The position numbers were made by a program, and so were the translations under genes. From the IMG/VR virus record IMGVR_UViG_3300042881_004318, positions 1-24,994 of that record: 24,994 nucleotides of DNA. The stretch is one strand, 5' to 3'. The DNA is from a virus. The notes under the pieces were generated by a model that had not been told where the DNA came from, made no database searches, and worked only from the letters and a program-made list of their open reading frames with translations. This document shows, in pieces, positions 3,109 to 23,165 of this stretch (its first letter is position 1; each line of letters opens with the position of its first letter).

Positions 3109-3702
3109 TCAGGCAATGATCCGGCCCTTCTCTGAATAAATGTCAATAAAATTTTGGGTGTAGTTGTCCAAGTCATCACTGGGTTGCAAGTAGACAATAA
3201 AAGAACTGCACGTATTTTTGGCCTCGATTCGACCATCTTCAAAATAATGCCGCCGAAGCATTGGGGTGTTTTTTAAAAAACAGATGGGAAAATCAAAAAT
3301 GTCCTGGGCATAACGAATCATGTCAGGGCAGTTGCCAAAATAAAGACCTTGTCTAATCTCACCAGACAGCCATTTTCTTTTAAGTGTTCGCCACCAGAGT
3401 GCGTACCCAGAAATCAAGGTATGTGACAAACCGCGTGTACGCTTCCACCTCTGGGACTTAATGTCCCAAAAGTACGTGTAGTTTGGTGGGAAAACGTAGA
3501 CATTTCCGAACCAATCCTGCTCGTTCAAGCCGTCATCTTCTGGTGTATAAAAGTGTTCAGCATTGACATAGCTATTGGCTACGGCAGAACTGGCTGGGTC
3601 AAGATCAATTCCACCCATAAGCATATGCGCGGAATTAATTAGATCGGCTCCAGACACCCACTCGAATGTATCGGCGTGCGCATTACCACGGAAAGAAGGC
3701 AT
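3109..3702 (-). CDS. Dam-like (phage N6-adenine methyltransferase family) protein with altered catalytic motif
   Basis: This 197-residue protein matches the layout of the phage DNA N6-adenine methyltransferase family (PF05869). IDLDPASS at 32-39 is the typical DxDPAS motif, followed by YTPEDDGLNEQDWFGNVYV. Where the family has the catalytic NPPY or DPPY, this protein has FPPNYTYFWD. The first residue of the tetrapeptide is Phe instead of Asn or Asp, and the aromatic residue is displaced by one. The later part has WWRTLKRKW and YFGNCPDMI. It may be an active variant with a shifted motif or a fold-conserving protein with another role. Its ATG shares one base with the stop of the upstream gene (TAATG), indicating coupled translation. 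Confidence 0.6.
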   Translation of the reverse strand: MPSFRGNAHADTFEWVSGADLINSAHMLMGGIDLDPASSAVANSYVNAEHFYTPEDDGLNEQDWFGNVYVFPPNYTYFWDIKSQRWKRTRGLSHTLISGYALWWRTLKRKWLSGEIRQGLYFGNCPDMIRYAQDIFDFPICFLKNTPMLRRHYFEDGRIEAKNTCSSFIVYLQPSDDLDNYTQNFIDIYSEKGRIIA

Positions 3703-4088
3703 TACTTTTCACTCACCTGGCAATAATCAATCTCAAGATAACGAATCCCGTCATCATCGTTAATAAGGTATCCAGCTTTCTCTTCCGGATTAATTTTTTG
3801 CGCCGCTGCCAATACCCGCCTGAACGTTTCCGCGAGGTCACCATTGTCTTCCCTTTCGCAACTCTCTTGTGCTGAATGCAATTCTTTTAGTGTCATAAAG
3901 AACATTGAGCGCTCTTTGTTGGTGGGCTGAAATACCATGATGCCAGGACCTTCAGCATCCCACAACTTACAGTAATGTTGCCCCATGTCACCAAGAATCA
4001 ACTTGATGGTGGCATCAAGCATCCTGGTTTTGGTCGTATCCAAATCCCCCTGGAGCGCGGCAGCAATTAATTTTTCGCGTCTATTCAT
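3702..4088 (-). CDS. Unknown protein (128 aa)
   Basis: This soluble protein is predicted largely helical and begins MNRREKLIAAALQGD. Two Cys are the only residues of possible note. No domain is recognised. It sits in a tightly coupled set: its start overlaps the end of the upstream gene by 8 nt (ATGAATAG), and its stop overlaps the ATG of the Dam-like gene by one base. The operon position next to an HTH protein and a methylase-like protein suggests a DNA-related or regulatory role, but nothing in the sequence itself shows this. Confidence 0.65.
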   Translation of the reverse strand: MNRREKLIAAALQGDLDTTKTRMLDATIKLILGDMGQHYCKLWDAEGPGIMVFQPTNKERSMFFMTLKELHSAQESCEREDNGDLAETFRRVLAAAQKINPEEKAGYLINDDDGIRYLEIDYCQVSEK

Positions 4089-4545
4089 TTTTTAAGAGTC
4101 CTTGACGGATTAGTATTTGTTTCATCTTAGGGAGTGGCTTGTAGATAACGACAAGCTTTCCTAGATTTCCTCGTTTTTTTACGAGCTTTTGATTTTCGTC
4201 TTTTAACTTGTCAAACTCTCCGGCTCGAATTAAATACTCGGCCACACAACGCAAGCGTCGTTTAAGGGACAAGTCTGCTTCTGGAAATTTACCACAGATT
4301 GTATCTGGTGCCATATCGGCAAATGCAATTCGCAGTCTGTTGGCAAGTGTCACATTGAAATGTGGATCTTCCTTTTCGAATTCTTTTATGTTGTACAGGT
4401 ACCGACGAAGGGTTTTTGTATCAAAAGAACCTTCGGGAGGCAGGAACATTTCCACTTGGTCAGCAAGCCCCTTAGGAAGAAGCTCGCAATAGTTCTCAAG
4501 GGTGACTGAGTCAATATCAATGAAATGAAAACGGTTATTACTCAT
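4081..4545 (-). CDS. Unknown protein (154 aa)
   Basis: The start is placed at ATG 4545 (MSNNRFHFIDIDS). An upstream in-frame ATG at 4659 would overlap the HTH gene by 122 nt and add residues unlike the rest. From 4545 the overlap is 8 nt (ATGAGTAA), and a purine-rich AAAGGGTGA precedes it, a good ribosome-binding site. The protein is mixed alpha/beta in appearance, with a Lys-rich C-terminal half (KLKDENQKLVKKRGNLGKLV) that could form a short amphipathic helix. No known domain is recognised. It is translated in series with the HTH gene upstream. Confidence 0.65.
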   Translation of the reverse strand: MSNNRFHFIDIDSVTLENYCELLPKGLADQVEMFLPPEGSFDTKTLRRYLYNIKEFEKEDPHFNVTLANRLRIAFADMAPDTICGKFPEADLSLKRRLRCVAEYLIRAGEFDKLKDENQKLVKKRGNLGKLVVIYKPLPKMKQILIRQGLLKNE

Positions 4546-4987
4546 CTTCACCCTTTGGCACGGAGCGATCAGGCACATGCCGTTGCTTTTGTTCTTGTAC
4601 ATCTTTATACTTTGTCCTTGCCCTGAATGACAAGATGGATACTTCATTATTTTTAGCAAAGGATGCGACCAGTCGATTCCAAGGAATTCGAATTGTATCC
4701 TTCTTCTTGCTGTCAGGGGAGATGTTGACGTAGTGAATATTTTGCGTCCATCCTTTAGACGGATCTTTTTTGCCGATTAAGATCCAATTGCGAATGGTTT
4801 GATCTGAAACGTTGAGTCTTTGGGCGCACTCATCCGTTGAAATATATTCATCTGCGTATGCTTCTGGTCCAACCTGGTCGGTCTCGTCATTTTTGTAGCG
4901 ACTATTCCACATGGCCCCAAGGATATTTTTAATCCCCTTGAGTTCGTACGCAATGTCTTCAAGTCCTTTTCGAATGCCGTATGCCAT
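4538..4987 (-). CDS. Helix-turn-helix DNA-binding protein
   Basis: Residues about 49-75 (YISTDECAQRLNVSDQTIRNWI) form a helix-turn-helix of the MerR/excisionase type, a conserved pattern in which an alanine-containing helix is followed by a VSxxTIRNW recognition helix. The remainder has a basic C-terminus of about 40 residues. Its 149 residues exceed a bare excisionase, and no integrase is seen, so a transcriptional regulator is the simpler reading. It is the first gene of the minus-strand block that continues through two unknowns, the Dam-like protein and dCTP deaminase. The divergent 54-base gap to the 5042 gene should hold its promoter; CTAAATAA on the minus strand at 5000-5007 is the only candidate box. 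Confidence 0.75.
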   Translation of the reverse strand: MAYGIRKGLEDIAYELKGIKNILGAMWNSRYKNDETDQVGPEAYADEYISTDECAQRLNVSDQTIRNWILIGKKDPSKGWTQNIHYVNISPDSKKKDTIRIPWNRLVASFAKNNEVSILSFRARTKYKDVQEQKQRHVPDRSVPKGEDE

Positions 4988-8346: not shown

Positions 8347-11300
8347 ATGGCATTAGAGACTTTCGAAGCAGGCTACGCGGGTTCGCGTCCACCCCGCACT
8401 GGTGCCCAGTGGTCAGGCATGTGGAAGCTTGGTCAAGTCACTGATCGCCTTATTGATGGCAAATGGCCCAGTGCCTGGTCTGTTGCTGGCGGCAATCAAC
8501 AAAAATCATTTGCAATTGTGCCGGGAGATGGAACACCTACTGATGTTCAATTTAATGATGACGGAACCAAGTTTTATGTAATTGGAAATACAAAAGATAC
8601 AATTTATCAATATACATGTACCACTGCATGGGACGTAAGTACTGCAGTATATGCAGGTAAATCGTTTTATGTTGGTACACAAGAAATAGCTCCAAATGCA
8701 TTATTTTTTAAATCAGATGGGACTAAATTTTATGTTGTAGGCCAAGCAAACGATACGATATATCAGTATTCATGTGCAACTGCATGGGATATAAGCACTG
8801 CATCTTATGACAGTAAATCATTTAGCATTGGGGTGCAAGAAATAAACCCACACGGATTATTTTTTAAATCAGATGGTACCAAGTTTTATGTTATTGGTCT
8901 TACAAGTAGCGGTAGAATTTTTCAATACTCATGTGCAACAGCATGGGACGTAAGCACTGCGTCATATGACACTAAATCGTTTAGTGTTAGCTCCCAAGAT
9001 ATATCTCCACAAGGATTATTTTTTAAATCAGACGGCACTGCGTTTTACATTGTAGGTCCTACAAACGACACAGTTTATCAATACACATGTGCTACGGCAT
9101 GGGATATTAGTACTGCATCTTATTCAAGTAAATCGCTTGTTGTCAATGGACAGGAAACGCAACCACAAGCATTATTTTTTAAATCAGACGGTACAGCTCT
9201 TTATGTTGTTGGCCAAACAAATGATGCAGTATTTCAATACACCTGTGCTACTGCGTGGGATGTAAGCACAGGATCTTACAGTCAGAAAGCGTTTTATATT
9301 GGCGGTGGACAGGAAACAAGTCCTAACGAGGTACAATTTAATGATGATGGAACTAAATTTTATATCGTAGGTAGTACAAGTGACACCGTATATCAATACT
9401 CATGTGCAACAGCGTGGGATGTAAGCACAGCGTCATTTGCTAATAAATTATTTTTCGTTGGGCTGCAAGAAACAAGTCCAACAGGATTATTTTTTAAATC
9501 AGATGGCACTAAATTTTATATTGTAGGCAGTACAAACGACACCGTATATCAATACTCATGTGCTACTGCCTGGGATGTAAGCACTGCATCTTATGACAGC
9601 AAATCATTTAGTGTTAGTGCGCAAGAAACAAATCCACAAGCATTATTTTTTAAGTCTGATGGTACTAAATTTTATATTGTAGGTTCTGGTACTGATACCG
9701 TATATCAATACTCATGTTCTACAGCATGGGATATAAGCACAGGATCTTATGACATTAAATTTTTTAGTGTTAGCTCCCAAGATATATCTCCACAAGGATT
9801 ATTTTTTAAATCAGATGGAACAACTTTTCATGTGTTAGGTGCCAACACCAGAACAGTATATCAATACTCGTGTGCTACAGCATGGGATATCAGCACTGCA
9901 TCTTATGCAAGTAAAGCATTTAGTGTTTCTACACAGTTAGCATTGGAAACCCTTACTGGTATCTGTTTTAAATCAGATGGAACTAAGCTGTACATTTTAG
10001 GCAGTAGTTTGAGGATAGTTTATCAATACACATGCTCTACCGCTTGGGATTTAAACACTACTTCTACATATGACAGCAAATCATTCAGTATTGCTGCACA
10101 AGATTTAACCCCAGTAGATGTACAGTTTAAAGATGATGGGACCAAGTTTTATATTTTAGGCCAAGTAAACAGAACAGTATATCAATACTCGTGTGCTACA
10201 GCATGGGACGTTAACACTGCGTCATATGACAGTAAATTATTTAGTGTTAGTACGCAAGAAACAAGTCCAAATAGTTTATTTTTTAAATCAGATGGTACTA
10301 AATTTTATATTGTAGGCAGCACAAATAGAACAGTTTATCAATACACATGTGCTACGGCATGGGATGTAAGTACTGCTTCATATGAAAGTAAATCGTTCAG
10401 CGTTAACACACAAGAAACAAGCCCGCAAGGTTTATTTTTTAAACCTGATGGTACTAAATTTTATATTGTAGGCACCATAAATAGAACAGTTTATCAATAC
10501 ACATGTGCTACAGCATGGGATGTAAGCACTGCATCATATGATAATAAATCGTTTAGTGTTACTAACCAAGAAACTATTCCCAATGGATTATTTTTTAAAT
10601 CGGATGGTACTAAGTTTTACATTGTAGGTGCTGCAAGCGATACTGTTTATCAATACTCTTGTGGCACAGCATGGGATGTAGGTACTGCGTCATATGATAC
10701 TAGATTGTTTAGTGTTGCTTCGCAGGAAACATCACCACAAGGATTATTTTTTAAGCCAGACGGTACCAAGTTTTACATTGTAGGCACTATAAACGATACT
10801 GTATATCAATATTCAACTGTTGCCGCATGGGAAATCCAATCTCCTTTTTATGATAACAAATTTTACAGAACAGCTACAGAAGAAACAACGCCATATGGGT
10901 TAACTTTTAAAACAGACGGTACCAAGTTTTACATTGTTGGTAATACATACGACACAGTTTTTCAATACTCATGCGCCACTGCATGGGATATTAGTACTGG
11001 GTCTTATGACAACAAAACGTTTACTACTACAGCACAAGAAGGACAGCCCACTAGTTTATTTTTCAAACCAGACGGCACCAAGTTATATGTAATAGGCAGT
11101 TCAAACGATGCAGTATTCCAATACTCATGCGCAACAGCCTGGGACGTAAGCACTGCATCATACGATAGTAGGTCATTTAGCGCTACTACACTGGAAAGTT
11201 CAGCGGAAGGATTGTTTTTTAAACCAGATGGCACTAAGTTTTATATTGTTGGTAGCACAAACGACACTGTATTTCAATTTGCCTGTGGTACAGCTTGGGA

Positions 11301-11610
11301 TATAAGTACCGCCTACTACGAAACAAAATCATTTACTATTCGCGCACAAGAAGGTAATCCGTTTGGTTTATATTTTAAAGATGACGGAACCAAATTTTAT
11401 ATGTTAGGCAGTTCAAATGATTCAGTATACCAATACTCCTGTACTACTCCTTGGGACGTAAGCACCGCTTCCTATGACGGTGTATCGTATAGTGTTGCAA
11501 CACAAGACACTACAAGCCATGAGATTCAATTTAAACCTGATGGCACTACATTTTATGTATTAGGTGATAACACCGACACAATCTATCAATACTCATGTCT
11601 ACTACAATAA
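8347..11610 (+). CDS. Giant beta-propeller tail protein with 20 blades
   Basis: This 1087-residue protein has a 63-residue N-terminal part (TGAQWSGMWKLGQVTDRLIDG, a tail-protein-like Trp pattern). It is followed by 20 copies of a ~52-residue unit of the form PxGLFFKSDGTKFYIVG, then STNDTVYQYSCATAWDVSTA, then SYDSKSFSVSxQETS. Each unit has four strand-like segments with a DGTK turn, the usual look of a beta-propeller blade. The last unit stops after strand three (YQYSCLLQ), while KSFAIV just before unit 1 could supply the missing strand, a classic ring closure. Units 1, 6 and 11 share a variant first strand (VQFxDDG), pointing to groups of five. It probably binds the host surface, perhaps glycans; that function is inference. 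Confidence 0.85.
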   Translation: MALETFEAGYAGSRPPRTGAQWSGMWKLGQVTDRLIDGKWPSAWSVAGGNQQKSFAIVPGDGTPTDVQFNDDGTKFYVIGNTKDTIYQYTCTTAWDVSTAVYAGKSFYVGTQEIAPNALFFKSDGTKFYVVGQANDTIYQYSCATAWDISTASYDSKSFSIGVQEINPHGLFFKSDGTKFYVIGLTSSGRIFQYSCATAWDVSTASYDTKSFSVSSQDISPQGLFFKSDGTAFYIVGPTNDTVYQYTCATAWDISTASYSSKSLVVNGQETQPQALFFKSDGTALYVVGQTNDAVFQYTCATAWDVSTGSYSQKAFYIGGGQETSPNEVQFNDDGTKFYIVGSTSDTVYQYSCATAWDVSTASFANKLFFVGLQETSPTGLFFKSDGTKFYIVGSTNDTVYQYSCATAWDVSTASYDSKSFSVSAQETNPQALFFKSDGTKFYIVGSGTDTVYQYSCSTAWDISTGSYDIKFFSVSSQDISPQGLFFKSDGTTFHVLGANTRTVYQYSCATAWDISTASYASKAFSVSTQLALETLTGICFKSDGTKLYILGSSLRIVYQYTCSTAWDLNTTSTYDSKSFSIAAQDLTPVDVQFKDDGTKFYILGQVNRTVYQYSCATAWDVNTASYDSKLFSVSTQETSPNSLFFKSDGTKFYIVGSTNRTVYQYTCATAWDVSTASYESKSFSVNTQETSPQGLFFKPDGTKFYIVGTINRTVYQYTCATAWDVSTASYDNKSFSVTNQETIPNGLFFKSDGTKFYIVGAASDTVYQYSCGTAWDVGTASYDTRLFSVASQETSPQGLFFKPDGTKFYIVGTINDTVYQYSTVAAWEIQSPFYDNKFYRTATEETTPYGLTFKTDGTKFYIVGNTYDTVFQYSCATAWDISTGSYDNKTFTTTAQEGQPTSLFFKPDGTKLYVIGSSNDAVFQYSCATAWDVSTASYDSRSFSATTLESSAEGLFFKPDGTKFYIVGSTNDTVFQFACGTAWDISTAYYETKSFTIRAQEGNPFGLYFKDDGTKFYMLGSSNDSVYQYSCTTPWDVSTASYDGVSYSVATQDTTSHEIQFKPDGTTFYVLGDNTDTIYQYSCLLQ
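8536..11607 (+). repeat. 20 tandem ~156-nt blade repeats
   Basis: The repeats start at residue 64 (Pro). The spacing is mostly 156 nt (52 codons), with small indels in units 3, 5, 9 and 10. The DNA is also repetitive: the word TTATTTTTTAAATCAGATGG recurs in many units. The final unit is truncated to 31 residues. Confidence 0.9.
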
Positions 11611-16936: not shown

Positions 16937-17590
16937 TTACTCTTCGGTTTCTTTTAGTAATTCCGGTTTAGTGATAGAAAATTTGTACTGCCGTTTAAGA
17001 AAAGAACTGAGTGTCCCCGCTTCTTTTTGCTGGGCATAAAACACAAGTTTATTGGCTTTGAACTCTGGCTCAAAAGGAGCAATTACTTTTGGTGGCGTGG
17101 TGCGGTTAAAGCTTGACACCATGTGCAATGGGTTGAAACACTGCTTATTCCCGCATGTCCGCGTGACGCTAAGAGTGCCGACATCGCCCCAGGCGCATTG
17201 ATAAATGGCTTTGTGCAGGGTAACGTTTTCGGCTGCTTGCTTGCTGTATGCAGCACGATAAGAGGGCATGCAGACACGCTTCAGTTCTTTCTGATTTGAT
17301 CGCTTGAGATGCCAGCAGTCAACTGTTTTACCAGTCTCAATTGAGTCCCAGATTGTGGCGTATTTGTGTTTGTAGCGGGCATCAAGGTAGTTGAGGTCAA
17401 AGCCACAGATGTTTGACACGATCTTGTGGACACACTCGTAGCACCAATGTTGGTCTTGTTTGCGAATGGTGTGACCATGGGCGCAGGAGTAGCCAACGTA
17501 GTAGCCGGCCCGCTCTAGGTCATCTTCCGATAGTTTGGTTAAGTCTCCTAAGTAGTGAAAGGAGACTACAGTTTCAATTACTTTTGCCAT
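16937..17590 (-). CDS. HNH/His-Me-finger zinc-loop protein, possibly not a nuclease
   Basis: This 217-residue protein has two zinc-site candidates. Cys36, His40, Cys50 and Cys53 (CAHGH, CYEC) could form a ribbon. Cys146-x4-Cys151-x4-His156 (CGNKQCFNPLH) is the zinc loop of I-PpoI-type His-Me finger endonucleases. In I-PpoI the catalytic His lies two residues before the first Cys of this loop; here that position is Arg144 (TRTCG), so the catalytic residue appears absent unless another His replaces it. It may be an inactive homing endonuclease or a DNA-binding regulator. It is followed 27 nt downstream by the 254-aa gene and preceded by another HNH-type gene. Confidence 0.65.
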   Translation of the reverse strand: MAKVIETVVSFHYLGDLTKLSEDDLERAGYYVGYSCAHGHTIRKQDQHWCYECVHKIVSNICGFDLNYLDARYKHKYATIWDSIETGKTVDCWHLKRSNQKELKRVCMPSYRAAYSKQAAENVTLHKAIYQCAWGDVGTLSVTRTCGNKQCFNPLHMVSSFNRTTPPKVIAPFEPEFKANKLVFYAQQKEAGTLSSFLKRQYKFSITKPELLKETEE

Positions 17591-17619: not shown

Positions 17620-17976
17620 TTAAAAAGATTCGCGTTTAGTTTGACGCTTGTTAGTTTTTTTTCGCTCAAAAAGAGTTAAGCGTTTGCGGTTGTCTTTTTC
17701 TGGATTGTCGCTGCCATGCATGACGTCAAAGTTGCCGGGATCCTTGCCGGTCCGCAGGTAGTAAACAATGCGATGGGCGTGAAACTGGTCACCATTCATG
17801 CGAATGACGTAGTACTGACCAGTGCTATTCCACTTGCCAGCCATGTCACCAGCCTTGTGTCGACCCGTGGTTTCGCGCCACTCAAGGGCACTGGGGTATT
17901 TGAGGGATAATTTGAGCCTGGCTCTGAGGTACCAGAGGGGTAAAAGCTGCTTGTACTCTCGCGCCATGCCTTTCAT
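17620..17976 (-). CDS. HNH_3-type endonuclease-like protein
   Basis: This 118-residue protein has a core resembling HNH_3 homing endonucleases: GQYYVIRMNGDQFHAHRIVY, then YYLRTGKDPGNFDVMHGSDNPEKDN, where the usual form is HRLVYELHTGE, then VDHiDGNpxNNRLSNLR. The first His is in FDVMHGSDN, and the asparagines NP and DN match later positions, although the usual VDH is VMH. It ends in a very basic tail (KKTNKRQTKRESF). ATG at 17976 or 17967 is possible (MKGMARE). It lies 14 nt or 23 nt from a well-formed TTGACA-18-TATAGT promoter, making it the first gene of the minus-strand block. Confidence 0.65.
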   Translation of the reverse strand: MKGMAREYKQLLPLWYLRARLKLSLKYPSALEWRETTGRHKAGDMAGKWNSTGQYYVIRMNGDQFHAHRIVYYLRTGKDPGNFDVMHGSDNPEKDNRKRLTLFERKKTNKRQTKRESF

Positions 17977-17989
17977 AGTTGGATATCCG

Positions 17990-18019
17990 ACTATAGGCGC
18001 TGCACGCGAGGCTTGTCAA
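17990..18019 (-). promoter_or_regulatory. Sigma70-type promoter for the HNH gene block
   Basis: On the minus strand a perfect TTGACA (18014-18019) and TATAGT (17990-17995) are separated by 18 nt. TATAGT continues as TATAGTCGGA. Transcription would start near 17983, giving a 7-16 nt leader to the ATG at 17976 or 17967. This is the best match to a host-type promoter in the window and points to expression by unmodified host polymerase, likely early. Confidence 0.65.
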
Positions 18020-18040
18020 GCGCAGAAAATGGTTGTTTTT

Positions 18041-18103
18041 TCCGACTATACATGCATTTTATCTTTTATATAACCAGGATTACATTTTGGTCCATTTTGT
18101 AAT
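18041..18103 (-). promoter_or_regulatory. Palindrome-activated promoter module, minus copy
   Basis: Read on the minus strand: an ATTACA...TGTAAT palindrome (18079-18103), two bases, TGGTTATATAA, then TATAGTCGGAAAA with TATAGT at 18045-18050. The right arm AAAATGTAAT is 28 nt from TATAGT. The same order and spacing occur in the divergent plus copy at 18186-18252. There is no clear -35 box, so a phage activator bound to the palindrome is the natural reading. Confidence 0.5.
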
Positions 18104-18125
18104 GATGCTCCACCTGGGTGCCTTG

Positions 18126-18182
18126 TATAATCGGAATCTCAACCCCGTCTCAAACTTGTCTCACCACACAGGTATAATCGGA
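18126..18182 (+). promoter_or_regulatory. Two further TATAATCGGA elements
   Basis: GTATAATCGGAA occurs at 18125-18136 and again at 18172-18183, 47 nt apart on the plus strand. Both contain a perfect TATAAT followed by CGGA, as in the other three elements of this region. Neither has the palindrome at the 28-nt distance seen for the two modules, and neither has a good -35 box. They may be promoters of a different strength class or binding sites. Confidence 0.4.
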
Positions 18183-18185
18183 AAA

Positions 18186-18252
18186 CATTACACTTTTGCT
18201 CAAAATGTAATGTTGGTTATGTAAGGTTTAGAACGGCGGTATAGTCGGAAAA
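18186..18252 (+). promoter_or_regulatory. Palindrome-activated promoter module, plus copy
   Basis: A near-perfect inverted repeat at 18186-18212 (CATTACA-C-TTTTG / CAAAATGTAATG) is followed by two bases, TGGTTATGTAA and TATAGTCGGAAAA with TATAGT at 18240-18245. There are exactly 28 nt between AAAATGTAAT and TATAGT, as in the minus-strand copy. No plus-strand gene follows, so the transcript, if any, is non-coding or antisense to the glycosyltransferase gene. Confidence 0.5.
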
Positions 18253-18365
18253 TTTAACCCCCTACATTTCGCCCAACGTTTCTTATCCGTACCAACTCCG
18301 CATAAAATCCCCATCCCTTGGTACAAACCAACTGTTTTTCCTGTATTCATCAGTCTCATCACCCA

Positions 18366-18393
18366 ATAAAAAGCCCCCGCCAAAGCAGGGGCT
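18366..18393 (-). terminator. Rho-independent terminator after the glycosyltransferase gene
   Basis: On the minus strand AGCCCC (18393-18388) pairs with GGGGCT (18377-18372) around a 10-base loop and is followed by TTTTTATT. It lies 21 nt past the stop at 18414. It closes the long minus-strand replication and modification block. Confidence 0.8.
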
Positions 18394-18413: not shown

Positions 18414-19709
18414 TCACTTGCCAAGGCGTTTCTTCTTTCGCTTGCTACGTGGCTCAGGTGCCTTCTGCTGAGCAGACTCCCTCATGTCATGGGCAGTGCC
18501 ATAGGAGCCATCCAGAACCTCCTGGAACAGCCCTGAGAACTGAGGTGCGATGTTGTCCCAGTCGTAGTAGGAGGAGGTGGCACGCTCGTAGCAGAGGCGT
18601 GCAGTCTCATCAAGCTTCTCACGGTTCTCGTATAGATCCGTCAAGATTTCAGCGAGGTGATCAGAGGAAGGGCATGGCATTTCCCGTGCGTAGTTCGTAT
18701 CCACATCAACGTGGTCGCAGCGGATCAGGCGTCCAGCACCCTCAAAGATCTCCTTACATGACGTATGGTCGGGCACCACCTGAGCAACGCGGCAACCAGC
18801 GTGTTCATGGTTGACCAAACCGTGGCCCTCACCCTTGCAAGTGTTGACGCCCACATCGGCTGCGTTGTAGATGGCATTAAGGACATCCACCTCCACATTG
18901 GGAGGCCCATCCGTTTGTGCGGTAAGGATGATGCGTCCATTGGGATCAATCCCTTCTCGCCTCATGGCCCTAGCAAACATGGGCATCAAGTCCCAACCTT
19001 GATCCTTGAGTCCCATATGTAGATACAGTTGCGTATCTGGTTTGTCCTTAGCAAACTTGGCAAAACCTTCAACCGTAATATCGATTCGTTTACGGAATTG
19101 GTTGCGGTTACCGTTGAACACCACAAAGATGTCATCCGATAAACCAAGCCGTTTACGAGCATCACTCTTATCCATGGGATAGAACTGACCCTTGGTGACG
19201 CCGTGAGGAATCACAGCGACAGGCTTCTGGTAGCCAGCGGCCACAATTTCTTTTGCGCCAAATTCCGTATAACAAATGGACGCATCCCATTCGTTCATGG
19301 TCTCAAGGATGCAACCAGTCCAGCCGTAGCTGTCCATGGGGTAGTACCCAATAAACTTAAAGGCACCAGTCTTATGGATGTCTTGGATCTGACGATACAA
19401 CTCATTCAGAATCCACAGATCATTCATGATGAAGATGAGATCTGGTTTCTCTTTCTCTACAATCTCCCTGATGCGTTGCTCACCAAAGGGTGCGGTCTGG
19501 TATCGATTGGACGACGGATAAATCAAATACTTATCACAGAGCGGATGTGGGTCACCCCACCAGTTATTACCAAGCACCACAACTTCATAGTCATCACAAA
19601 GACGCTCAAGCACATTTTCCGTGACACGAGCAAATCCGGTCTTGGCAATGATGTCACCGGACCAGAGCAGTTTAGGACGTTTTGTTTTTTTCAAGATACT
19701 CAATTGCAT
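18414..19709 (-). CDS. GT4-type glycosyltransferase
   Basis: This 431-residue protein transfers a sugar from a nucleotide-sugar donor to an unknown acceptor. The GT-B fold pattern is visible: an N-terminal domain beginning LLWSGDIIAKTGFARVTENV, IGYYPMDSYGW in the middle, then the donor domain with FNGNRNQFRKRID (Arg/Lys contacts to the diphosphate, about 198-210) and the EX7E motif Glu294-GHGLVNH-Glu302. The basic C-terminus (RSKRKKKRLGK) is short and flexible. The start (MQLSILKK) overlaps the upstream endonuclease-like gene by 38 nt; TTG at 19694 would reduce this to 23. It could modify phage DNA, virion protein or a host glycan; the sequence does not tell which. Confidence 0.82.
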   Translation of the reverse strand: MQLSILKKTKRPKLLWSGDIIAKTGFARVTENVLERLCDDYEVVVLGNNWWGDPHPLCDKYLIYPSSNRYQTAPFGEQRIREIVEKEKPDLIFIMNDLWILNELYRQIQDIHKTGAFKFIGYYPMDSYGWTGCILETMNEWDASICYTEFGAKEIVAAGYQKPVAVIPHGVTKGQFYPMDKSDARKRLGLSDDIFVVFNGNRNQFRKRIDITVEGFAKFAKDKPDTQLYLHMGLKDQGWDLMPMFARAMRREGIDPNGRIILTAQTDGPPNVEVDVLNAIYNAADVGVNTCKGEGHGLVNHEHAGCRVAQVVPDHTSCKEIFEGAGRLIRCDHVDVDTNYAREMPCPSSDHLAEILTDLYENREKLDETARLCYERATSSYYDWDNIAPQFSGLFQEVLDGSYGTAHDMRESAQQKAPEPRSKRKKKRLGK

Positions 19710-20127
19710 TTCTAAAATAATCTACATCATCTTTGAAATAACCAAGGCCAAGGTTGCATGTTGAACAAAGGACTCCTCTTACTTTGTTAGTTTCATGGCA
19801 ATGATCTACATGCCAATCCTTTGCTCCTGGACTTTTTGTTTTGCAAATTGCGCAACAATGTCCTTGTTTGGCTAGCAGGTTATTTCTTTCTTCAAGTGTT
19901 ACCCCGTAAAGGCGCATTAGATTACCGGACTTTCTTTTGTCTGCGTTGTTTTCTTTCCACTCTTTTGCTTTATTTTTAGTACATTCTTTACAGATATAAG
20001 AAAGATACCCCACCCTCCTGCTGGGACCATTTTTTTTGGACGCATAGAACTCAGCGGCTTTTTTAATAACCTTGCAACAGTTGCATTGCTTTTGCGTCAA
20101 GGGCTCGGTTCGCTTGGGCCACGCCAT
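19672..20127 (-). CDS. Endonuclease VII-like HNH nuclease
   Basis: This 151-residue protein has a C-terminal part resembling T4 endonuclease VII (gp49), which resolves branched DNA. It has CCAIC (91-95), HVDHCHETNKVRGVLCSTCN (106-125) with the DH-H catalytic pattern, and paired Cys for zinc. T4 gp49 has HLDHDHELNG, then KVRGLLCNLCN. The N-terminus adds another zinc-type set (Cys15, Cys18, Cys46, Cys49). Free-standing members in phages often act as homing endonucleases, so a resolvase role is not assured. Its end overlaps the glycosyltransferase start by 38 nt, unusually long here, and a terminator-like hairpin separates it from speD upstream. Confidence 0.78.
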   Translation of the reverse strand: MAWPKRTEPLTQKQCNCCKVIKKAAEFYASKKNGPSRRVGYLSYICKECTKNKAKEWKENNADKRKSGNLMRLYGVTLEERNNLLAKQGHCCAICKTKSPGAKDWHVDHCHETNKVRGVLCSTCNLGLGYFKDDVDYFRNAIEYLEKNKTS

Positions 20128-20181: not shown

Positions 20182-20541
20182 CTATACAGAAGTGCAAGGA
20201 GTTGTTGATCGTACTAATTCTTTTTGTTCGGCTATTTCCGCCTTGAGTTTTGTTTTTAAAAACTCAGCTGCTCGATGCGTTTGTGTTGTATCACCACAGG
20301 TGTACAAATCGATTGCCGCATACCCAATCTCTGGCCAAGTGTGCACACTTGCATGGGACTCAGCCAACAATGCAAGCAGCGTCACGCCTTGCGGCTCAAA
20401 TTTTTCACCAATGATCCGTAGGATATTGGCTTTAGCCATGACAAGAGAAGCCTCAAGCAATCGTTGAAGCTCCTCATAATCATTCAAAACCTCTGGGTTA
20501 CACCCATAGAGATCTAAGATTAAATGGCGGCCGTTGCTCAC
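20182..20541 (-). CDS. speD: S-adenosylmethionine decarboxylase proenzyme
   Basis: This 119-residue protein makes decarboxylated S-adenosylmethionine, the aminopropyl donor for spermidine. It matches the prokaryotic SpeD class that self-cleaves: LLAESHASVHTWPE places the cleavage between Glu61 and Ser62, with Ser62 becoming the pyruvoyl group. His67 and Cys82 (DLYTCG) match the catalytic His and Cys. The length is typical. The start is GTG at 20541 inside GTGA, overlapping the primase stop by 4 nt, so the two are translated together. SpeD genes are known in marine cyanophages and may adjust polyamines for DNA packing or host photosystem use; that link is inference. Confidence 0.9.
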   Translation of the reverse strand: MSNGRHLILDLYGCNPEVLNDYEELQRLLEASLVMAKANILRIIGEKFEPQGVTLLALLAESHASVHTWPEIGYAAIDLYTCGDTTQTHRAAEFLKTKLKAEIAEQKELVRSTTPCTSV

Positions 20542-23165
20542 ATTTCTTCTGCAGCAACTTCCATTGTCTCATTAGTAGGTACATCTAGGGTAGCCCCGTA
20601 GAAATCTCGATACTTTTGACGATCAGAAGACACTTCTACAATTGACGGATAAGCCTCATACTTTTGATTTGACTCCCGTACAGCTGCATTAAATACCCGC
20701 ATACCTTTGGTGTTCTTGGTGGCATACACATTTAACTTGAGCTGGTGTTTGCAGATGTCAAGGAACAAGGGTTCAAACCGGCCACGAGACATAATGCCTA
20801 CATTGCAGCTACGACAAAACTCTGCATAGCTTGCATACATCCACTGGTTCCAGTTCATGTACGCACCTGAGCTTCCACCTGGTAGCGGCTTACAGAAACC
20901 AACAGGAGCAGATGCACCTGGGTCAAATACAACCTTGTGATCCAACCAATCCAGCAACGGGTTGGAACGCAGGCTTTGCTGCTTCTCATACCGCTGGAAG
21001 AAATCAACTTTCTTGCCGGTTTCCATCAGGTATGTCCGCATTTCTTCTGCAGACATATCCAATAACCAGTTCACCAGACCAGGCAGCATGGGTGCAAACA
21101 CACCTTGCGGCATACCCTTGGCATCAAACTTGATCAGTTCTTTTTGCTCGGCTTGTCCACCTTCGAATGGACGATCAAACGGAACAGTGAGACGGCGACG
21201 AGCAAGACCAGAAGTATAGTCGGTTGACTGAATAGCTTCGTTGGCCGTGATCATAACAACCCCGTGGTACTGGAAGGGATCTTGACTTTCAGTCTGATAC
21301 TTGCGTTCAGAACGAATCCAGTCATTACCAGTGATCGCCTTCAGTTTTGATACCGACCCACCCCAACGGTCTGCATCTTGGAACAGCAACAGCTTTTTAC
21401 CCATGTAGCTAGCTGCTTCAAACCTGTTCTTCTCCAGATTTTCAAAGTCTGTTGAGTAGGTGTTCTGTTTACCGACCAGTGCTACAGCCAGGTTTGCATA
21501 GGTGGATTTACCAGATTTACCTGGACCTACAATTTCAATAAACTTCTGGATCTCATAGCAGCCAAGGAGTGTGGCCCGCAACCATGCACGTAGAACCTGA
21601 GCACGTTGCCAGCTACCGTGTTGAGTGTGCTTCAACCAGATAACAATTTCTTCACAAGTGGCAGATGCGTCATAGTTGTACGGCATCTGTTGGATCATGT
21701 GAAGCTCCCTGTCAAAAGGAAGTAGTTCACGTGTATCAATATTTAGGACACCATTGGTGAACAAGAGGTATTCACCACCTTCATACCAATTATCAAATGC
21801 CAGCTCAGCCTGCAGCTGAGCAAAGACATCATTCATAAGGTTTGTACTGAACCCCTTAGGAAGGAAGTCACCCAACTCCTTGAGCTTGCCCCTTATATCA
21901 CCAAGCACGTCGATCTTGGTCAACGGTGACCAGAGGCCTTTCTTTTTGTCCTTCTCATATAAGAAGAACTGACCATGGGGTTGACTGTACAGCAGATTGC
22001 CCCTATACATTTGGAGCAATACATCCGTGACTTTATCCGATGAAGGGTTCCGTCCTTTGGAGTCTTCTCCTTCTTTGTCTACCTGTTTTGCCGGCACATG
22101 CTTCGTCTTCTTTTCAAAGACAGGAGCCTGTTCTAATGTGGTTGCCTGACTCATCTCTAGATCCTGTTCTAATTCTTCCAGCAGTTTCGACACATGTTCT
22201 AATGTCGCATCATCGACATTCATCGCCCTGTGATCCTGGGGCGGCTGCCAACCGTTCTCCTTCGCAATGTGAACAAGAGAACCAATCCCACGACCACCCC
22301 CACGACTAAACGACAGCCACCGGCGGTGACATTCGCCATCTTTATACTTATCCGATTGCCTGGACCAGTTATCCCATTCATCTAATAGGGATTCATCCAG
22401 CGAGTGAAGCGACTGACCGACCGTGATCCAAATGTCATAGTCATCAGTTGCTTCCGGAGGCAGTGCCCACATTGCCTCCCTTGCCAACTTCATGTCCCGA
22501 TCAAGATCGATCTGAACATTGACTGCAAAACTTGGGCCAACAAGCCGAGTAGTTTCCTTGGCAGGGACCCCCTGCTTTACATTTTTATTGATGATGGCAT
22601 TCAGCAGCCATTCCGGAAACTCAGGCAGTTCCTGGACCCACTCAAAACCACAGTCCTCACCCGTAAAGTAACCATCGGTCTCAGGGTGCAGACCCATTAG
22701 CACACCCTGGTGCCGCTTCCAAAGAATCTCAAGTTTTTCTTTGTTTTCTTCCCCGTGCCAGGTGTATTTATTTCTGACGAAATGCTTATGATTTTCCCGT
22801 TTCAGGCGATAAAGTTTGCGTTCACGCCCAATTTTGCCACTGAAAACGGTCAGGGTTTGGGGCAATGCTTCATTAAGAGGCAAGCCAGAGAGTTGTTCAA
22901 TAAGTGGATAGATGCTCGGTCCATCAACATCAACCCAGACCAGGCCATAAGGATAGTTGTAGACAGGGCCGCCAAGTAAACCGACAGCTTTGCACTTGCC
23001 GGTAAGGATTTCCTCCTCAATTTCCTGTGGACTAAATGGCTTGTTTTGCCAACCTGATACATATGGATCTTTGTTTGCGCCGAGCGGCGTAAGCGGCCAA
23101 TCCTTGGGGATGTAGTCAAGACGTACCTCGCCGGGCTTCAGGGTCAATTGTTGTTTGCTTGTCAT
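20538..23165 (-). CDS. Primase-polymerase / SF3 helicase
   Basis: This 875-residue replication protein has several domains. The N-terminal 15-190 is PrimPol-like: VWVDVDG with Asp79 and Asp81, and a later GYFTGEDCGFEW. Residues about 218-310 resemble the PriCT-2 helical domain (DYDIWITVGQSLHS, then GGGRGIGSLVHIAKENGW). Residues about 380-520 are D5-N-like. The SF3 helicase domain has Walker A GPGKSGKST (547-555), Walker B LLLFQDAD (592-599), VMITANE (637-643) and Arg-rich GLARRRL. It would prime and unwind phage DNA. A charged linker at about 330-375 separates the halves. The start ATG overlaps the upstream gene stop (ATGA), and its end overlaps speD by 4 nt. Confidence 0.88.
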   Translation of the reverse strand: MTSKQQLTLKPGEVRLDYIPKDWPLTPLGANKDPYVSGWQNKPFSPQEIEEEILTGKCKAVGLLGGPVYNYPYGLVWVDVDGPSIYPLIEQLSGLPLNEALPQTLTVFSGKIGRERKLYRLKRENHKHFVRNKYTWHGEENKEKLEILWKRHQGVLMGLHPETDGYFTGEDCGFEWVQELPEFPEWLLNAIINKNVKQGVPAKETTRLVGPSFAVNVQIDLDRDMKLAREAMWALPPEATDDYDIWITVGQSLHSLDESLLDEWDNWSRQSDKYKDGECHRRWLSFSRGGGRGIGSLVHIAKENGWQPPQDHRAMNVDDATLEHVSKLLEELEQDLEMSQATTLEQAPVFEKKTKHVPAKQVDKEGEDSKGRNPSSDKVTDVLLQMYRGNLLYSQPHGQFFLYEKDKKKGLWSPLTKIDVLGDIRGKLKELGDFLPKGFSTNLMNDVFAQLQAELAFDNWYEGGEYLLFTNGVLNIDTRELLPFDRELHMIQQMPYNYDASATCEEIVIWLKHTQHGSWQRAQVLRAWLRATLLGCYEIQKFIEIVGPGKSGKSTYANLAVALVGKQNTYSTDFENLEKNRFEAASYMGKKLLLFQDADRWGGSVSKLKAITGNDWIRSERKYQTESQDPFQYHGVVMITANEAIQSTDYTSGLARRRLTVPFDRPFEGGQAEQKELIKFDAKGMPQGVFAPMLPGLVNWLLDMSAEEMRTYLMETGKKVDFFQRYEKQQSLRSNPLLDWLDHKVVFDPGASAPVGFCKPLPGGSSGAYMNWNQWMYASYAEFCRSCNVGIMSRGRFEPLFLDICKHQLKLNVYATKNTKGMRVFNAAVRESNQKYEAYPSIVEVSSDRQKYRDFYGATLDVPTNETMEVAAEEM

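Follow-up and report, generated by a model that had tools for sequence, protein, structure and literature searches.

A symmetric single-copy element 3' of the primase operon is a probable replication origin of S-EIV1-like cyanophages

What is the function of two mirror-image sequence modules that lie between co-oriented genes of a virus? The question was raised by a stretch of viral DNA of 24,994 nucleotides (IMG/VR record IMGVR_UViG_3300042881_004318, positions 1 to 24,994), referred to hereafter as the window, which represents part of the genome of a phage related to Synechococcus phage S-EIV1 (KJ410740; 58% identity in the primase). A preliminary description of this DNA had read the modules, at 18041–18252, as a pair of divergent, activator-dependent promoters. 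We found that they are the halves of a single large symmetric element (Table 1), of which dozens of uncultured relatives of S-EIV1, a freshwater Synechococcus phage, have one copy per genome. To our knowledge, few replication origins have been mapped in dsDNA cyanophages, and it is as a probable origin that the element is considered here.

The twin modules, their palindromes and the 28-nt spacing were present exactly where the preliminary description had placed them, and far above chance expectation. Each arm comprises a 25-bp palindrome, ATTACA-N13-TGTAAT, a 28-nt filler starting NNTGGTTATRTAA, and then TATAGTCGGAAAA; the minus-facing arm extends over 18042–18103 and the plus-facing arm over 18187–18248. 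The 24,994-base record contains AAAATGTAAT-N28-TATAGT just twice, with one copy per strand, and the full module, ATTACA-N13-TGTAAT-N28-TATA[AG]T, which occurs twice in the window, was absent from 300 block shuffles, where the bare palindrome arose at a frequency of 0.007 per shuffle. The absence of a proper -35 box was also borne out, the hexamers at 17-nt spacing being TTATAT and TTATGT. The claim that the filler bases largely differ held only in part: when both fillers were compared directly, 12 of the 28 positions differed and 16 matched, reflecting the common TGGTTATRTAA.

The inverted repeat extends beyond the modules, with arms at 18031–18104 and 18186–18259 (74 nt each, 72% complementary). 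Folded as a single hairpin, the element reached -35.6 kcal/mol, as compared with -18.8 ± 3.1 kcal/mol in shuffles (z -5.5). The centre carries iteron-like repeats; TGAGAC/GTCTCA occurs at 5.4 per kb in the intergenic element regions as compared with 0.34 per kb genome-wide, a 16-fold difference, and neighbouring copies are most often 11 bp apart (13 pairs), the repeats not being tandem in every relative. Five TATARTCGG boxes lie within 17987–18248, three of which (17987–17995, minus; 18126–18134, plus; 18173–18181, plus) had been missed in the preliminary description. The copy at 17987–17995, also TATAGTCGG, sits in the separate classical promoter of the HNH gene and has a good -35 box, and one further TATAGTCGG was found in the rest of the window, at 21215. 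Between the element and the GT terminator, TTGGTACAAACCAA at 18318–18331 forms a small perfect inverted repeat; it lies in a block that is kept in four close relatives, and the surrounding bases diverge. Elsewhere in the window, ATGACAnnAAATnnTTTAGTGTTAG occurs four times (8966, 9593, 9749 and 10226) inside one large open reading frame, 8347–11610 on the plus strand, which apparently encodes a repeat-containing virion protein.

Table 1. Coordinates of the element, its parts and the neighbouring genes in the window.
Feature	Position	Strand	Remarks
Primase-helicase	20538..23165	-	Prim-Pol, PriCT_2, D5_N, DUF5906; proposed initiator
Glycosyltransferase (GT), last gene of the primase operon in the window	18414..19709	-	Missing in some relatives, element still present
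Terminator-like hairpin AGCCCC..GGGGCT plus T run, between GT and element	18366..18393	-	Conserved in relatives
Whole element, imperfect inverted repeat or extended stem-loop	18031..18260	.	About 230 nt
Outer box TATAGTCGG, plus-facing arm	18240..18248	+	No plus-strand gene before the GT end
28-nt filler with TTATGTAAGGTTTAGAAC, plus-facing arm	18212..18239	+	Left-arm consensus AAGGGTTAAAA
Palindrome ATTACACTTTTGCTCAAAATGTAAT, plus-facing (left, GT-side) arm	18187..18211	.	
Extra box TATAATCGG	18173..18181	+	Adjoins the palindrome at 18187
Three TGAGAY repeats, element centre, iteron-like	18136..18163	-	11-bp steps (18136, 18147, 18158)
Extra box TATAATCGG	18126..18134	+	Within block TGAGATTCCGATTATAC, invariant in four close relatives
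Palindrome ATTACATTTTGGTCCATTTTGTAAT, minus-facing (right, HNH-side) arm	18079..18103	.	Family consensus ATTACACTTTGGCCCAAAGTGTCAT
28-nt filler with TTATATAAAAGATAAAAT, minus-facing arm	18051..18078	-	A-rich right-arm consensus AAAGATAAAA
Outer box TATAGTCGG, minus-facing arm	18042..18050	-	-10-like hexamer 18045–18050
Classical promoter TTGACA-N18-TATAGT before the HNH gene	17990..18019	-	11 of 12 consensus positions
HNH protein, 118 aa, immediately following the element	17620..17976	-	Missing in S-EIV1 and several relatives
p217, zinc/His-Me-finger (I-PpoI-like) protein	16937..17590	-	Adjoins the element in every relative examined

The element outranked every other inverted repeat in all of 12 genomes or contigs, the window and 11 related ones, and none of 6,681 other 400-nt windows reached its score. 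In these approximately 690 kb the arm module occurred only at the element, and outside it the palindrome scored just once, weakly, in a single genome. When 2.9 million viral contigs were scanned blindly for palindrome-N28-nAnnnTC, 12 contigs matched, all of them already listed as family members, eight with both arms. The exact string TATARTCGGA was present in 8 of 14 records, at no more than three copies each, and those placements that were compared with the loci fell at the element. A genome-wide promoter class and scattered stoperator-like sites were accordingly rejected, the module being confined to a single locus both in the 12 genomes or contigs and in the 2.9 million viral contigs.

Relatives were gathered through the neighbouring p217 protein, which matched 294 IMG/VR loci. 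The best 80 of the 294 were fetched, and 71 of these 80 gave the GT-to-HNH/p217 intergenic region, 41 of them non-redundant. In 36 of the 41 the best inverted repeat beat all 15 dinucleotide shuffles, and in the other five it did not exceed them; for 28 of 33 relatives, none of 40 shuffles folded as low as the stem-loop. Arms in the family measure 70–150 nt each. A position weight matrix built from four seed arms found the arm module in 60 of 76 possible arms, the matrix frequencies being somewhat flattering because the matrix was fitted to the same data. Of the 34 right and 26 left arms of non-redundant relatives, 18 and 17, respectively, had exactly 28 nt between palindrome and box hexamer; among arms whose palindrome ends in a recognizable TGT[ACT]A[TC], other distances were no more than scattered exceptions. 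The conservation of palindrome and spacing on which the preliminary description had staked its case is thus strikingly evident in relatives. The box itself varies (TATAGT, TAAAGT, CAAAGT, TATTCT, TATTGT, TATGAT) and is followed by C-n-G; its A2 and T6 were each present in 100% of the 34 right arms, and in 92% and 100%, respectively, of the 26 left arms.

The filler consensus differs by side, AAAGATAAAA on the right as against AAGGGTTAAAA on the left. The two arms of one phage nevertheless vary together: boxes were 84% identical within and 60% between phages, and palindromes 70% and 40%, respectively, neither difference being reached in 5000 permutations, counts which are not strict probabilities because the sequences are phylogenetically related. 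The arrangement between the arms is variable, compact relatives (L078, L104) having a single palindrome common to both arms, and window-like relatives two, separated by TGAGAC repeats at 11-bp spacing. At mismatched arm positions, G-U-compatible pairs were not in excess on either strand (121 versus 125), indicating that the symmetry is kept at the level of DNA and not as an RNA stem. These comparisons show, as far as sequence can, that symmetry and the 28-nt spacing must stay fixed and that the sequence may drift.

Most IMG/VR relatives that were retrieved with the primase keep the order primase, AdoMet decarboxylase, GT, element, HNH, p217 and p254; the HNH gene is absent from S-EIV1, and no match to it was obtained at one primase locus. 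The element thus lies 3' of the primase operon and its terminator, one to three genes from the primase. In the window, the genes between primase and GT are an AdoMet decarboxylase gene (20182–20541, minus; PF02675, 1.7e-35) and a recombination endonuclease VII-like gene (19672–20127, minus; PF02945, 6e-25). The left-hand neighbour, GT in most relatives, always points at the element, so the left-facing box has no gene to serve. One relative without GT (L096) has the order primase, AdoMet decarboxylase, terminator, element. In two others the element is kept with a cupin-like gene between it and GT; this cupin or sugar-isomerase-like insert lies at 1410–1751 in L109 and at 1294–1875 in L146.

To the right of the element come the HNH gene, often missing, and p217, always present. 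The distance from the end of the right box to the HNH start codon is 20–25 nt in eight compact relatives, which makes rightward promoter activity plausible in those relatives. Small HNH genes vary on either side: L005 and L006 have a second one to the left of the element (in L005 one on each side, at 3249–3581 and 4001–4360), and S-EIV1 has none, a pattern that looks as if homing genes insert beside the element.

Which proteins might act at this site? The primase-helicase matched Prim-Pol (4.8e-9), PriCT_2 (1.7e-21), D5_N (5.4e-10) and DUF5906 (6.3e-15), four domains identical in set and order to those of the BIP-1 replication protein, and its helicase half shares approximately 31–39% identity with cyanobacterial plasmid proteins of the P4-family and DUF3854 groups. 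When its last 206 residues were modelled (AF2, pLDDT 72), the top PDB fold match was 1ka8, the P4 origin-binding domain, with a probability of 1.00, a TM-score of 0.70 on the target and an E value of 0.025, which is below usual significance; ASFV PrimPol and Orc1/Cdc6 came next. The model thus predicts a winged-helix DNA-binding domain, most like that with which P4 binds its origin. The p217 protein combines a zinc-ribbon with a His-Me-finger, and the best fold matches of its model (AF2, pLDDT 87) were I-PpoI, I-HmuI and Smad3-MH1, all weak and below usual significance. In a profile alignment its invariant Arg144 falls at the position of the catalytic His98 of I-PpoI, so that p217 may not cut; this suggests that the nuclease fold has lost its ordinary mode of cleavage. 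Similarity between palindromes is better matched by similarity in p217 (partial r 0.35, with GT taken into account) than by similarity in GT (-0.07), making p217 a possible palindrome binder. The preliminary description had nominated the HTH protein encoded at 4538–4987 for this role, and no special link of that protein to the element was found; the primase C-terminal domain and the product of the adjacent p217 gene are better candidates.

The single copy, the location 3' of the initiator operon, the dominance of the stem-loop, the retention of symmetry despite divergence of sequence and the lack of a gene for the left arm are better accounted for by an origin than by a pair of promoters. We conclude that S-EIV1-like cyanophages probably start replication at this element, which would be an origin of the stem-loop type seen in Prim-Pol/SF3 replicons. 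We infer binding, melting, priming and bidirectionality at the element along the following lines. The primase-helicase would bind through its C-terminal winged helix, and two mirrored complexes would assemble, their register being set by the 28-nt spacing (about three helical turns); the A-rich arms would melt, and two diverging forks would start. Because the boxes look like -10 elements, outward transcription may help to open or prime the origin, and the rightward box may also serve the HNH/p217 operon. The same resemblance counts against an origin, which does not require boxes that match a -10 rather well, as does the promoter-like position of the right box near the HNH start.

GC skew was of no help. 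The cumulative skew has a maximum, not a minimum, at the element in most relatives (at 18034 in the window), which is no origin signature, and this peak is present although the genes on both sides are co-oriented. At four-fold sites the HNH-side genes are C-rich (-0.12 to -0.20) and the primase side is near 0, a weak switch with large scatter that ascribes much of the skew to coding constraint. The skew neither supports nor clearly opposes an origin; it was rejected as proof of origin or terminus and not used. A GTG/CAC priming motif was also discarded, ranking just 10th among triplets for arm conservation, as was an A-rich stretch as the mark of the region, its A content being high and not unique.

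Activator-dependent divergent promoters are the main rival to an origin, or a second role of the same DNA, and both roles can coexist. A dimeric phage activator, for which p217 is a candidate, would bind the palindrome, centred at about -53, and recruit host RNA polymerase to divergent promoters without -35 boxes, the right one transcribing HNH/p217/p254 and the left one a short non-coding or antisense RNA. This explanation is possible, although we consider it rather unlikely. Several observations speak for it: palindrome and spacing are conserved, the -10-like boxes, lacking a -35, keep a nearly invariant A2 and T6 at a fixed distance, and the right box has its place just before HNH in the eight compact relatives. 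Its difficulty is that the site occurs once per genome, with no regulon, that the left-facing promoter has no gene in any arrangement seen among relatives, and that the HNH gene has a good promoter of its own in the window. The position of the palindrome centre fits a dyad near -55 upstream of a -35-less -10 box, of the P2 Ogr/Delta type, and the single palindrome of L078 and L104 serves both arms as in the P2-like Smp131 (PMC3931495); no Ogr/Delta homologue was found, however, there being no PF04606 match in 8 records (the E. coli control matched), nor was a recombinase homologue in S-EIV1 and five relatives, and a sigma-region-4 match was obtained in just one of six genomes. The correlation of palindrome similarity with p217 similarity, and the resemblance of p217 to the dimeric DNA binder I-PpoI, are consistent with an activator, yet promoters do not need arms that are halves of the strongest inverted repeat, 70–150 nt per arm with outer sequence co-varying beyond the box. 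A combination of both roles, in which the arms would be initiator sites and outward promoters of a transcription-coupled bidirectional origin, mirrored transcripts would prime or open the forks, and p217 would be a nuclease turned palindrome-binding factor, seems doubtful to us.

Repression and DNA processing were less probable still. Five box copies within 260 bp, phage-specific yet common to both arms and one of them overlapping a classical promoter, could be operators at which the p217/HNH operon is repressed by one of its own products, with a binding site (TATARTCGG and variants) that differs between phages; the fixed 28-nt mirror geometry, the long stem-loop and the missing left gene are left unexplained by such a repressor, and we judge it very unlikely. 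Least probable, by a little, is a site for site-specific recombination, packaging or a nuclease, or a structured RNA, to which the presence of a large symmetric element beside two nuclease-like genes might point. A recombination site was rejected, since no tyrosine or serine recombinase family was detected in S-EIV1 and five relatives, where positive controls matched. Packaging is disfavoured by the distance between the S-EIV1 terminase gene, at 54.1 kb, and the element, near 7.8 kb, and an RNA structure was rejected in view of the absence of G-U bias and of any Rfam match at gathering score.

The proposal of a stem-loop origin for Prim-Pol/SF3 replicons has so far rested on one archaeal plasmid family and one phage. 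The S-EIV1-like family, with its 294 IMG/VR loci, adds a candidate that is sharply delimited, present once per genome, constrained in its geometry and amenable to cloning and testing.

The Ogr/Delta late promoters of P2 and P4 lack a -35 box. They resemble the element in this and in their upstream dyad, one of which can serve two divergent promoters (PP/PO), as does the single TGT-N12-ACA site common to the PP'/PO' promoters of Smp131 (PMC3931495). That site was not found at the element, where the polarity is reversed (ACA-N13-TGT), and the element further differs in occurring once per genome and in having no leftward gene. The phage P4 origin, an iteron origin used with the alpha protein, is similar in its D5_N/SF3-type primase-helicase, in the P4-like C-terminal winged helix predicted here and in short repeats at helical spacing. 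It differs in that the alpha primase is of the Toprim type and not Prim-Pol (PMC4234260), the S-EIV1-like protein lacking the Toprim feature, and in that a dominant stem-loop, rather than iterons alone, marks the element. Cyanobacterial plasmid Reps of the P4-family/DUF3854 group have the related helicase half (31–39% identity) and an origin beside the rep gene; in pSYSA (CyRepA1) the origin adjoins the rep gene with overlapping transcripts, and control is by a ColE1-like RNA pair (PMC9978351).

In the Sulfolobus plasmid pRN1, a stem-loop of approximately 100 nt 3' of the rep gene is required for replication, its structure being conserved and its sequence unconserved, and the same kind of origin was proposed for BIP-1 (Berkner et al., 2014; PMC4234260); origin function in pRN1 was deduced from plasmid maintenance and not from mapped initiation (PMC4234260). 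In BIP-1, taken as a control, the second-strongest inverted repeat (26486–26848) lies 3' of the replication gene, which ends at 27177. The S-EIV1-like element differs from this type in having arms with a conserved 25-bp palindrome and a -10-like box set exactly 28 nt apart, in the usual presence of two more genes between primase and element, and in its iteron-like 11-bp repeats. It shares with the Sulfolobus pRN plasmids and Bordetella phages BIP-1/BPP-1 a protein that joins Prim-Pol, a helical domain (PriCT_2 in the phages) and an SF3-type helicase, followed 3' of the gene by a terminator and then a large stem-loop whose stem diverges in sequence and conserves its symmetry.
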